64,000 nt of DNA. Source: Microbacterium sp. Au-Mic1. Its GTDB lineage: Bacteria; Actinomycetota; Actinomycetes; Actinomycetales; Microbacteriaceae. How positions within the stretch are numbered: the stretch's first letter is position 1; every line of letters begins with the position of its first letter. The notes beneath the pieces are model-generated. The model saw only the letters and a program-made list of their open reading frames with translations, did no database searches and had not been told where the DNA came from. Of the stretch, positions 29,647-32,546 are shown one piece after another. The position numbers were made by a program, and so were the translations under genes. The DNA is taken from positions 310,001-374,000 of the forward strand of contig NZ_JAJTTF010000002.1 of NCBI RefSeq assembly GCF_021341785.1, given 5' to 3'.

Positions 29647-30669
29647 TCAGAACCTGATGGCCGCCTGGTAGCGCGGCTTGTGCCCGGTGCGGATGCCCGA
29701 GACGCTCGGCTTGTTCTCGTAGACGCCGGCGCCCCAGTTGCCCTCGACGAGCACGGGGCCGTCCGGGCCGACGACGATGTCCCAGCCGACGTACTGCACC
29801 TGGGGCACGACGCGCGCGACCTGGTCGACGAACGCCTTGACCTCGTCGATCAGCGGCAGCTGGAAGTCGGCGATGCGGAAGCCCGAGTCGGGATGCAGCT
29901 CGTGCACGTGCCCGTGGGAGTCGTAGCCGGCGCTCACCGCGTGGCCGTCGTCGTCCAGCATCGTGTAGAAGCCGCCGAACGACATCTGGTCGCTGACCTC
30001 GCCGCGCCCGAACTTCTGCGCCATCGCGAGGATGTGCGTCTTCTCGCCGTCGAAGAAGGCGGTGACGCGGGTCGTGTTGACCGTGCCGGGGCAGACCGCG
30101 GCGAGGTCGGGGTGCTGCCGGATGACCTCCTCGACGAGCAGACGGCCCTGGCCCAGCAGGTCGGCGTGGAAGGCATCCCAGTCGGAGACGTCGGCGGCGT
30201 GGTAGCGGAACACGCCGGAACCGGCCTGTCCCATCGGCGTCTTCACGATGACGGTGCCCAGACGCTGCACGAAGTCGCGCAGCTCGTCGGCGTTGCCGGG
30301 CTTCACGACCATCCACTCGCGACGGAGGAAGTCCGAGAACTTCTCGTCGAACTCGATCTTGTCGTGGAAGAGGTGCCGGTAATCGGGGTGCGCGTAGCGC
30401 TCCGAGATCTGGTTCGACACGGGGTGCGTCATGTAGGTCGCGCGCTCTGCGCGGTTCAGGATCGCGAAGTCGTAGTCGATGTAGTCCTGGAAGCCCACGT
30501 TGTGGCGGCCGGCCGACCACAGCATGTCCACCACCACGGCGGGGACGGCCTTGCCGTGCTGCGCGGACGCCTCCTTGGCGCGCTCGATCACCGAGCCGAC
30601 GTTGATGCGACGGGCGCGCTCGGCGAGATAGCCGAGACGGGACTTGAGGCCGAGGCCGTTCGAGGGCAT
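29647..30669 (-). CDS. sugar-transfer-associated ATP-grasp protein
   Basis: A 340-residue cytosolic protein matching the ATPgrasp_ST family. Signature stretches are DYIDYDFAILNRAERATY, a glycine-rich nucleotide loop VIVKTPMGQAGSGVFRY, LVEEVIRQHPDL, the VNTTRVTAF strand, and the metal-binding end VQYVGWDIVVGPDGPVLVEGN. Members ligate a carboxylate to an amine via acyl phosphate by family inference, but substrates are unknown and they often sit in surface-polymer loci. The ATG at 30669 has a GGAG site; a minus-strand TAGACT at 30709-30714 is a likely -10. It diverges from the racemase-like pair. Confidence 0.83.
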   Translation of the reverse strand: MPSNGLGLKSRLGYLAERARRINVGSVIERAKEASAQHGKAVPAVVVDMLWSAGRHNVGFQDYIDYDFAILNRAERATYMTHPVSNQISERYAHPDYRHLFHDKIEFDEKFSDFLRREWMVVKPGNADELRDFVQRLGTVIVKTPMGQAGSGVFRYHAADVSDWDAFHADLLGQGRLLVEEVIRQHPDLAAVCPGTVNTTRVTAFFDGEKTHILAMAQKFGRGEVSDQMSFGGFYTMLDDDGHAVSAGYDSHGHVHELHPDSGFRIADFQLPLIDEVKAFVDQVARVVPQVQYVGWDIVVGPDGPVLVEGNWGAGVYENKPSVSGIRTGHKPRYQAAIRF

Positions 30670-30786: not shown

Positions 30787-31509
30787 GTGAACGAGCCGCT
30801 CCCCGACACTCTTCCGCAGAGTGCGATGCTGCGTTCGCTGATCTCGCGGTCGGCGCTCGAGGACGGGGCCGCCGCCGCGGTCGCCGCCGGGGGAGCGGGC
30901 ATCGCGGATCTTCGCCACGATGCGTGGGGGCACGGCCTCCTCGACGTCGCTCGGGTTGTGACGGCGGCAGGCGCGCGCGGCGTGCGCGTGGACGGGCCGC
31001 ACGACGTCGCGCTGCTGCGAGCGGAAGGCATCGAGGCGACCTGCACCGAGACGCCGGAGCTGGATCCGCGTGTGCTGTACGGTCTGCCGGATGCGAGCGG
31101 AGCGCTGCCGGGCCGACCGGTGATGCGCGTGGCAGGGCGCGTGCTCTCGACCAAGGACATCGCGGCGGGCGGCGGTGTGTCCTACGGCTACATCCATCGC
31201 GCCTCCGAGGATTCGCGCCTCGCGCTCGTCACCGGCGGCTATGCACAGGGCGTTGTTCGTGCCCTCGGCAGCCGCGCGTCGATCGAGATCGACGGTGTGG
31301 TGCACCCGATCGTCGGCCGGATCGCCATGGACGTCTGCGTGGCGGACATCGGAGGGACGGACGTCGCCGTGGGGGCCGAGGCGACGTACTTCGGCGGAGA
31401 AGGCCCCTTGTCGGCGGGGGTCGCCGACTGGGCTCGGATCACCGGGATGCGCATCGACGAGCTGGTGGCCGTGGCCGGGCAGAGGACGGAGCGGGCATGG
31501 GAGGCATGA
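30787..31509 (+). CDS. alanine racemase-like protein A: keeps catalytic Tyr, lacks PLP Lys and most of the barrel
   Basis: A 240-residue shortened relative of PLP-dependent alanine racemase (normally ~370). Residues 15-85 align with the first strands of the barrel, but the PLP lysine motif K-A-N-A-Y-G-H-G reads R-H-D-A-W-G-H-G, so Arg43 replaces the PLP lysine and Trp47 replaces a tyrosine. The middle of the barrel, about 150 residues, is absent. The C-terminal beta domain is well kept: GGGVSYGYIHRA with Tyr133 at the catalytic-tyrosine position, GGYAQGVVRALGS, and PIVGRIAMDV with the conserved Met-Asp. It overlaps protein B (31506) by ATGA. Alone it cannot bind PLP in the usual way. It probably pairs with protein B. 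Confidence 0.8.
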   Translation: MNEPLPDTLPQSAMLRSLISRSALEDGAAAAVAAGGAGIADLRHDAWGHGLLDVARVVTAAGARGVRVDGPHDVALLRAEGIEATCTETPELDPRVLYGLPDASGALPGRPVMRVAGRVLSTKDIAAGGGVSYGYIHRASEDSRLALVTGGYAQGVVRALGSRASIEIDGVVHPIVGRIAMDVCVADIGGTDVAVGAEATYFGGEGPLSAGVADWARITGMRIDELVAVAGQRTERAWEA

Positions 31510-32546
31510 CCGGTCCCGTGCTGCGGGTGGACCAGGCCGTGCTGCAGGCGAACATCGCGGCCGTGACCGCGCGGGTCGCGCCGTCCACGCTGATGATGGT
31601 GCTCAAGGACGACGGCTACGGCCTCGGCGCCGCCTGGGCGGCGCGTGTCGCGGCGAACGCGGGGGTCGGGTGGTTCGGCACCTACGACATCCCCACCGCG
31701 CTCCGGCTGCGCGACGAGGTCGGTCCGGTGCCACGGCTGTTCGCCTGGGCCACCTCGGTCGATGCGGAGATCGACGCGGCGCTGCGGGCCGACGTGGACC
31801 TCGGCGTGGGGACGCTCGACTATCTGCGCCGAGTGATCGCGCGGGCGGCGGAGCTCGGCGCCGTCGCGCGCATCCATCTCAAGGTCGACACGGGACTGCA
31901 CCGCAACGGGCTTTCGGCCGAGGAGTGGGACGAGGGAGTCGGGTCGGCGCTGCGGGCGCAGAACGACGGGCGACTGCTGCTGGTGGGCGCGTGGAGCCAC
32001 CTCGCGGAGGCGAGCGACGACGAGGACGACGCTGCGCAGGCACGATTCCTCGCGGCTGTGCGCCGCGCCGGCGAACTCGGTGCGGACCTGCCCCACCGGC
32101 ACCTCACGGCCTCGGCCGCCACCTGGGCCCGCCCGGAGCTGCGCGGCACGCTGGTCCGCGTGGGCGCCTTCTGCTTCGGCGTGCGCTCCGCCGACGGGCC
32201 GGACCTGCCGGGGATCGCGCCCGCGGCCGAGCTCGTCGCGCCGGTGCTGCGCATCGACGGGGATGAGGTCGTCGTGGGTGTCGGATCCTTCGACGGGCTG
32301 CCGAGCATCCTCGCCGGACGCGTGCAGGTGGGCACACCGGCCGGCGCCCGGACGCTCCTGGCTGTCGGCCCTGACACGGTGCGCGTCGCGGGCTGGGATG
32401 CCGCCGCGGTCGGCGACGAGGTGGTCCTGTTCGGCCGGGGTGCGCACGGCGAAGCGACCCCGACCACCCTCGCCGAGGCGATCGGCACCGTGGGCGAGGA
32501 GATCCTGTGCCGGCTCACCGCTCACGTGCGGCGCGAAGAGCACTGA
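31506..32546 (+). CDS. alanine racemase-like protein B: keeps PLP-binding barrel, lacks catalytic Tyr segment
   Basis: A 346-residue relative of alanine racemase with a complete N-terminal barrel. The PLP lysine is Lys34 (MMVLKDDGYGLG). Lys126 and Arg133 (HLKVDTGLHRNG), His165, Ser203 and Arg218 match Lys129, Arg136, His166, Ser204 and Arg219 of the Geobacillus enzyme. In the C-terminal domain the ~25-residue stretch that holds the catalytic Tyr265 is missing: AELVAPVLRIDG runs straight into VVVGVGSFDG. The GRICMD motif is also lost and the tyrosine near the C-terminus is Glu. Start ATG 31506 overlaps the stop of protein A; ATG 31497 is an in-frame alternative. The lost pieces are those kept by protein A, so a heterodimer would have one complete active site. 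Confidence 0.82.
   Translation: MTGPVLRVDQAVLQANIAAVTARVAPSTLMMVLKDDGYGLGAAWAARVAANAGVGWFGTYDIPTALRLRDEVGPVPRLFAWATSVDAEIDAALRADVDLGVGTLDYLRRVIARAAELGAVARIHLKVDTGLHRNGLSAEEWDEGVGSALRAQNDGRLLLVGAWSHLAEASDDEDDAAQARFLAAVRRAGELGADLPHRHLTASAATWARPELRGTLVRVGAFCFGVRSADGPDLPGIAPAAELVAPVLRIDGDEVVVGVGSFDGLPSILAGRVQVGTPAGARTLLAVGPDTVRVAGWDAAAVGDEVVLFGRGAHGEATPTTLAEAIGTVGEEILCRLTAHVRREEH

Follow-up and report, generated by a model that had tools for sequence, protein, structure and literature searches.

Two overlapping alanine-racemase-like genes of Microbacterium have lost complementary parts of the active site and are predicted to form a one-site heterodimer

Introduction

Alanine racemases of the Alr/DadX type (fold type III; e.g., 1SFT, 1XFC, and 1VFH) are homodimers with two equal active sites, each of which lies at the subunit interface and combines the PLP lysine of one subunit with the catalytic tyrosine of the other. 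The gene pair described here, A and B, shares with Alr/DadX the fold, the residues of the PLP barrel, and a predicted interface site that combines Lys and Tyr, but its Lys and Tyr reside on separate products, with only one complete site possible.

In serine palmitoyltransferase, a eukaryotic PLP enzyme of fold type I that belongs to a different enzyme family from Alr, the PLP lysine is found in only one of the two paralogues LCB1 and LCB2. A second precedent is the deoxyhypusine synthase of trypanosomatids, likewise an enzyme with an interface site, which according to excerpts of PMC3663545 has become a pair of an impaired paralogue (DHSc) and a dead one (DHSp), the dead paralogue making its impaired partner 3000-fold more active; unlike A/B, this system is eukaryotic and has an unrelated fold and reaction. 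The preliminary description of the present locus had taken the division of an interface active site between duplicated genes to be undescribed. For the alanine-racemase family this holds in the literature searched, which left most subscription papers outside its coverage and in which neither a split nor a heterodimeric alanine racemase was reported; for interface enzymes generally it does not, given deoxyhypusine synthase. The novelty thus lies in the enzyme family concerned and in the recurrence of such pairs within it, since interface enzymes made of complementary paralogues were already known.

Excerpts of PMC3485190 and PMC4517790 attribute strict alanine specificity to Tyr354 acting together with Tyr265' and describe Tyr354 as replaced in lysine-preferring racemases. 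In Lyr (Thr391) and Bar (Ala393), represented by 4DZA/4DYJ, the replacement leaves more room by the PLP (PMC3485190, in part). The same position is replaced in B; however, Lyr and Bar are homodimers that keep the catalytic Tyr and carry a non-acidic replacement, whereas that in B is acidic. The available part of PMC3485190 also gives Lys129 of BsAlr as KCX129. With respect to the cell wall, excerpts of PMC10757982 report D-Orn, L-Lys, or diaminobutyrate in Microbacterium strains, with M. gubbeenense and M. enclense among those having L-lysine, and those of PMC10011130 report both D- and L-diaminobutyrate in Herbiconiux. Our literature searches found no racemase assigned to the D-ornithine or D-diaminobutyrate of group B walls.

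Results

The A/B gene pair in the window

The window, i.e., the whole stretch of DNA analysed, comprises 64,000 nucleotides from Microbacterium sp. Au-Mic1 (contig NZ_JAJTTF010000002.1, positions 310,001 to 374,000). The two ORFs and their ATGA overlap were recovered exactly as given in the preliminary description, the overlap occupying 31506-31509 (Table 1). Residues of A and B were assigned by alignment to the intact, Tyr354-type Alr (L001) that the same genome also encodes. This alignment bore out the earlier reading of A as a protein which keeps Tyr133 and the Met-Asp motif and carries Arg43 where the PLP Lys would be; about half of the barrel is missing, and what remains of it is predicted, with a pLDDT of 93.9, to form an ordered half-barrel. 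For B, alignment and Pfam agree with the earlier claim that Lys34, Lys126, Arg133, His165, Ser203, and Arg218 are kept and the Tyr segment is lost. B additionally has Tyr38, shows a gap at the Tyr segment, and has no Met312 equivalent.

Table 1. Features of the A/B gene pair, numbered from the first nucleotide of the window.
Feature	Position	Strand	Description or basis
Gene A	30787..31509	+	Alr with internal barrel deletion; catalytic Tyr and Met-Asp motif present; PLP lysine absent
Gene B	31506..32546	+	PLP barrel including Lys34; C-domain without Tyr segment
A-B stop-start overlap (ATGA)	31506..31509	+	sequence; translational coupling likely
A Arg43, PLP-lysine position	30913..30915	+	alignment
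A Tyr133 in VSYG, equivalent of catalytic Tyr265'	31183..31185	+	alignment
A Met181-Asp182, equivalents of Met312'-Asp313'	31327..31332	+	alignment
B Lys34, PLP Schiff-base lysine position	31605..31607	+	alignment
B Lys126, equivalent of Lys129	31881..31883	+	alignment
B Arg133, equivalent of Arg136	31902..31904	+	alignment
B His165, equivalent of His166	31998..32000	+	alignment
B Ser203, equivalent of Ser204, PLP phosphate	32112..32114	+	alignment
B Arg218, equivalent of Arg219	32157..32159	+	alignment
B Glu331 at the Tyr354 (alanine-specificity) position	32496..32498	+	alignment; role of Tyr354 from excerpts of PMC3485190 and PMC4517790

In A (240 aa), the only racemase Pfam domain is PF00842 (Ala_racemase_C) at residues 112-237 with 89 bits. 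B (346 aa) matches PF01168 over profile positions 1-219 with 140 bits, together with a truncated PF00842 match (profile 36-125, 33 bits) that begins only at profile position 36, indicating that the Tyr-bearing stretch is absent. Neither chain singly contains a complete PF01168 plus PF00842, which A and B reach when combined, and the catalytic Lys and Tyr are never on one polypeptide of the window, Lys being in B and Tyr in A. The expected Alr-type fold (barrel plus beta domain) was found, and the closest families and best PDB relatives of the pair are alanine racemases. Against TIGR00492 (alr), A scored 76.1 bits and B 108.3 bits, both below the curated cut-off of 168 bits.

Conservation of the complementary loss

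Across 56 two-gene pairs from Microbacteriaceae (37 + 17 + 2), the PLP Lys is present in 56/56 B and 0/56 A, and the Tyr265 equivalent in 0/56 B and 56/56 A; as in the deoxyhypusine synthase pair, each paralogue lacks a residue that the other keeps. This set includes two pairs in reversed order (L037 and L064), excludes L003 as a duplicate of L016, and does not count L072, for which only A is present at a contig end. All 56 A proteins also have the Met312 equivalent, a retention of Tyr and Met in a Lys-less protein for which a pure regulator would have no need, and 53 of them retain the Asp313 equivalent. The barrel stretch including the Lys position is wholly absent from A in L073 and L074, and B of L058 has a Gly at the Tyr position instead of a gap. 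Among the 120 relatives of A listed out of 1100, the SYG and Met motifs were found in every one and the Lys in none (118 Arg, 2 Ala); correspondingly, SYG was absent from all 120 relatives of B listed out of 957.

The catalytic residues are invariant in the A and B alignments, and nine comparisons gave dN/dS values of 0.15-0.28 (A) and 0.10-0.28 (B). Both genes are under purifying selection. The possibility of a pseudogene or frameshift artefact was considered and rejected on the basis of the conservation and dN/dS values. In many genomes of the genus (G305, G364, and others), the A frame is shorter, about 214-237 residues, and matches mainly the C-domain, suggesting from its sequence a further erosion of the half-barrel.

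Pairing and genomic neighbourhood

A and B were either both present or both absent in all 37 genomes of the same genus on which the B profile was run, out of 149. In 24 of the 149 (one of which, G384, is 68% complete), the A profile retrieved a single match at the level of an intact Alr; none of these 24 yielded a B-level match, the best B-profile score being 349 bits. All 13 A-carrying genomes have B, at 417 bits or more. The presence of A in these 13 is based on a listed match in ten, on sequence retrieval in G352 and G339, where A was judged by the presence of the Tyr segment, and in G382 on an in-frame fusion to B. A further genome, G341 (81% complete), gave no match.

Of 52 loci with the order A-then-B, 45 (33/36 + 12/16) have a start codon of B that overlaps the stop of A by 4 nt. 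A gyrB-type topoisomerase gene is located near the pair with Asp or Glu at position 354 (see below) in 24/24 loci compared, with sigA also near in 22, while tandem pairs and the reversed pair with Tyr354 are found elsewhere, adjoining tsaE. In the window, a divergent ATP-grasp gene (PF14397) at 29647-30669 on the minus strand adjoins A and is possibly a Microbacterium cell-wall ligase. As a constant partner of the pair it was rejected, as a relative lies near the racemase genes in just 5/27 loci compared.

Natural fusions

Five A-B fusions were found among the 120 proteins listed out of 4096, in addition to L210 and L215, and 16 frames have the order B-A. All 17 fused frames that were aligned (the 16 B-A frames and L210) carry the Lys in their B half and the Tyr in their A half, and never the opposite; for L197, L205, and L210 (B half), the Lys was established by alignment. 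These fusions, together with the shared presence and absence described above, mark A and B as one another's partner. The predicted fold of fusion P0246 (601 residues) has a pLDDT of 91.8 and a pTM of 0.90, so that the relative placement of the halves is confident; this model, which used a smaller mixed alignment since the A rows had landed on the B half in the larger alignment of A, B, and fusions, supports a fixed arrangement of the halves, not specifically that of Alr.

Two kinds of fusion have further peculiarities. L215 (G382, same genus) is a 569-residue frame in which a short A comprising only the C-domain is fused in-frame to B. In five g50 genomes (L158, L202-L205), a single frame comprises B, A, and a TsaE-like stretch with an LGAGKTT motif, i.e., an alanine-racemase-like chain is joined to a tRNA-modification ATPase domain.

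Genomes without an intact Alr

Split or fused forms were the sole PF00842 racemases found in 18 genomes of four genera. In the genus g78, each of the five genomes has exactly four PF00842 matches, which constitute two split pairs with no intact Alr (ten pairs in all, each with its residues read). Fusions are the sole PF00842 frames in g21 (6/6), g50 (5/5), and g74 (2/5); in the other three g74 genomes, an additional intact distant racemase (L211-L213) occurs beside the split forms. One of these, L213, has the Lys, a VGYE Tyr, Asn313, and Ala at position 354. The reversed-order g78 pairs L037 and L064 (B, then A) keep Tyr354 and lie beside tsaE, and their genomes also carry a Glu-type A-B pair. 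The 0.9 Mb genome G015 has one Asp-type split pair and no intact Alr, the A of this pair being its sole PF00842 protein; this does not agree with residue 354 strictly deciding which task an enzyme performs.

A D-Ala-D-Ala ligase scored over the cut-off in all five g78 genomes and a D-amino-acid transaminase in none of the five, with weaker matches present. Such matches below the cut-off occurred in all seven genomes checked (none from g21, g50, or g74), reaching at most 64.7 bits versus 277; since the transaminase model exceeded its cut-off in only 1/14 controls, a distant D-Ala source in these genomes may exist. If such cells do make their own D-Ala, the split or fused enzyme would have to be its maker.

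Residue 354 and cell-wall diamino acids

The residue equivalent to Tyr354 is acidic in 54/56 B proteins, the exceptions being L037 and L064; it is Glu in Microbacterium and Asp in Leifsonia and relatives. It is also acidic in 10/10 full-length g2 paralogues of tandem pairs, while Tyr354 is found in 10/10 tandem g1 paralogues and in 11/11 single intact Alr proteins (L075-L085). Carriers of the Glu type include M. oxydans and M. paraoxydans, which are close to the D-ornithine strains in the excerpts of PMC10757982. The Asp type is found split in Leifsonia and Diaminobutyricibacter and intact in Herbiconiux. The link of Glu and Asp to ornithine and diaminobutyrate is based on a few named genera, and it fits, as a correlation only, a supply of D-diamino acids for group B peptidoglycan. 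The 24 genomes of the genus that have no pair may belong to L-lysine species. The genus whose diaminobutyrate is best documented here, Herbiconiux, has the unsplit Asp form; given that intact Asp- and Glu-type enzymes exist, splitting is not required for the presumed specificity. Many of the 85 sampled genera showed no protein with Asp or Glu at 354, so such proteins are not the sole route to group B walls.

Intermediate forms and origins

In a sample of 85 genera with one genome each, two-gene split pairs were found in 26, with residues read in each, and two more sampled genomes (G020 and G049) have the fused form only. Nine genera instead have tandem full-length genes, a g1 with Tyr354 and a g2 with Asp or Glu354 (ten tandem pairs were read, two of them from one genus). 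In the tandem pairs L050, L051, L055, and L056, the position of Lys129 is occupied by Cys in g1 and by Gly, Thr, or Asn in g2, which, judging from the sequences, may be another reciprocal change. Four g58 genomes (L028, L030, L036, and L042) have a full-length A in which Asp replaces the Lys, and L159 and L160 have a full-length A with Thr and Ser, respectively, at that position.

Two barrel trees set the Asp/Glu354 rows apart from the Tyr354 rows (100/88 for Asp/Glu in the first tree, 100/100 for Tyr in the second), and the Tyr354 side holds the fusions of g21, g50, and g74 (91/95) as well as the B proteins of g78 (98/84). In the second tree, the bootstrap was not fully settled and the root is uncertain, the distant row L211 pulling it to the Glu side and placing the Tyr clade beside the Asp types. 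The tree of the A C-domain is weakly resolved. Because split forms occur on both the Asp/Glu and the Tyr354 sides, the sequences point to at least two origins of the complementary loss, provided that the Tyr segment was never regained. Both the Asp and the Glu branch also include intact full-length members, placed next to the split ones or interspersed with them, which makes more losses, or regains, likely.

Discussion

We consider it probable that A and B are diverged relatives of alanine racemase with complementary losses, that they form a predicted obligate heterodimer with one site, and that this heterodimer racemises a diamino acid, ornithine in the case of Microbacterium, for group B peptidoglycan. 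The pair is well supported as a heterodimer and moderately supported as a diamino-acid racemase. A catalytic A-B heterodimer with one complete site, as predicted in the preliminary description, is very likely because of the complementarity of residues, the strict pairing, the gene overlap, the purifying selection, the fusions with the predicted fold of one of them, and the lineages that have split or fused forms only. The racemase role proposed earlier is retained as a prediction, with its substrate amended to a probable diamino acid on account of Glu331 and the intact alr in the genome.

In an Alr-type head-to-tail dimer, B Lys34 with its PLP and A Tyr133 would meet to supply the two acid/base groups of a single site, and the reciprocal site, made of A Arg43 and the Tyr-less C-domain of B, would be dead. 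The ATGA overlap would balance the synthesis of A and B. There is perhaps an even chance that the acidic Glu331 in place of Tyr354 widens the pocket and draws the side-chain amino group of ornithine; relatives of the Asp type (Leifsonia and others) would then use 2,4-diaminobutyrate.

The substrate could instead be alanine (or serine), with a catalytic A-B heterodimer serving as a second D-Ala source besides the intact alr, a reading that we consider rather unlikely but not negligible. The families closest to the pair, and its best relatives in the PDB, are indeed alanine racemases. Tyr354-type split or fused forms constitute the sole PF00842 racemases of g21, g50, and G136, and every g78 genome has them, so that a split enzyme could plausibly act on alanine; G015, whose sole PF00842 protein is the A of an Asp-type pair, points the same way. 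The versions in g21, g50, G136, and g78 nevertheless keep Tyr354, whereas B of the window has Glu331, and the two B proteins that are not acidic at this position both belong to the reversed-order g78 pairs. Moreover, the window genome holds the intact Tyr354 Alr L001, and 24 genomes of the genus are without the pair.

Other readings deny a shared A-B site altogether. One may imagine that a B homodimer is active with another residue in the place of Tyr, A being a mere activator, chaperone, or regulatory pseudo-subunit, as dead paralogues which activate their partners are known (PMC3663545, in part) and an Asp or Glu at position 354 could conceivably act as an acid/base. This is improbable, as A keeps Tyr and Met in 56/56 cases without the PLP lysine, which a pure regulator need not do, B never occurs without A in the 37 genomes tested, and the fusions bind A and B one to one. 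It is very improbable that A and B each form mixed dimers with an intact Alr of the cell: the fold and interface family are shared and the window genome has L001 and L002, but g78 and G015 keep A and B with no intact Alr, and both the fusions and the joint presence or absence identify A and B as partners. The idea that the genes are decaying duplicates, whether pseudogenes or non-catalytic PLP-binding proteins, draws on the big barrel deletion in A and the loss of Tyr from B and is hardly credible in view of dN/dS values of 0.10-0.28, invariant catalytic residues, and the retention of the pair beside the gyrB-type gene in 24/24 Asp/Glu-type loci compared.

Beyond the catalytic A-B heterodimer itself, we tentatively propose, at somewhat less than even confidence, that in Microbacteriaceae duplicated genes of the alanine-racemase fold repeatedly lost opposite halves of the interface site and gave rise to one-site heterodimers or single chains (A-B, B-A, and B-A-TsaE), which would be the sole alanine racemase in some genera, and that the Glu/Asp354 branch would provide the D-diamino-acid racemase so far missing for group B peptidoglycan, its Glu form suited to ornithine (or lysine) and its Asp form to 2,4-diaminobutyrate. 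If this is true, a textbook family of symmetric homodimers and drug targets has evolved asymmetric one-site heterodimers and single-chain forms, and the series from intact tandem genes through a full-length Lys-less A and a truncated A to the fusion would illustrate how interface enzymes become obligate complexes. Candidate genes for the supply of D-ornithine and D-diaminobutyrate to group B walls would likewise be at hand, and many proteins of this family annotated as "alanine racemase" would be predicted to be unable to work alone.

We would also like to note the second racemase-like gene of the window genome, L002 (G000:C19:137570-138637), which has VGYG and a His at position 354. It adjoins a second D-Ala-D-Ala-ligase-like gene (G000:C19:136560-137495; 238 bits, below the cut-off), and the two perhaps constitute a small D-Ala/D-X cassette.
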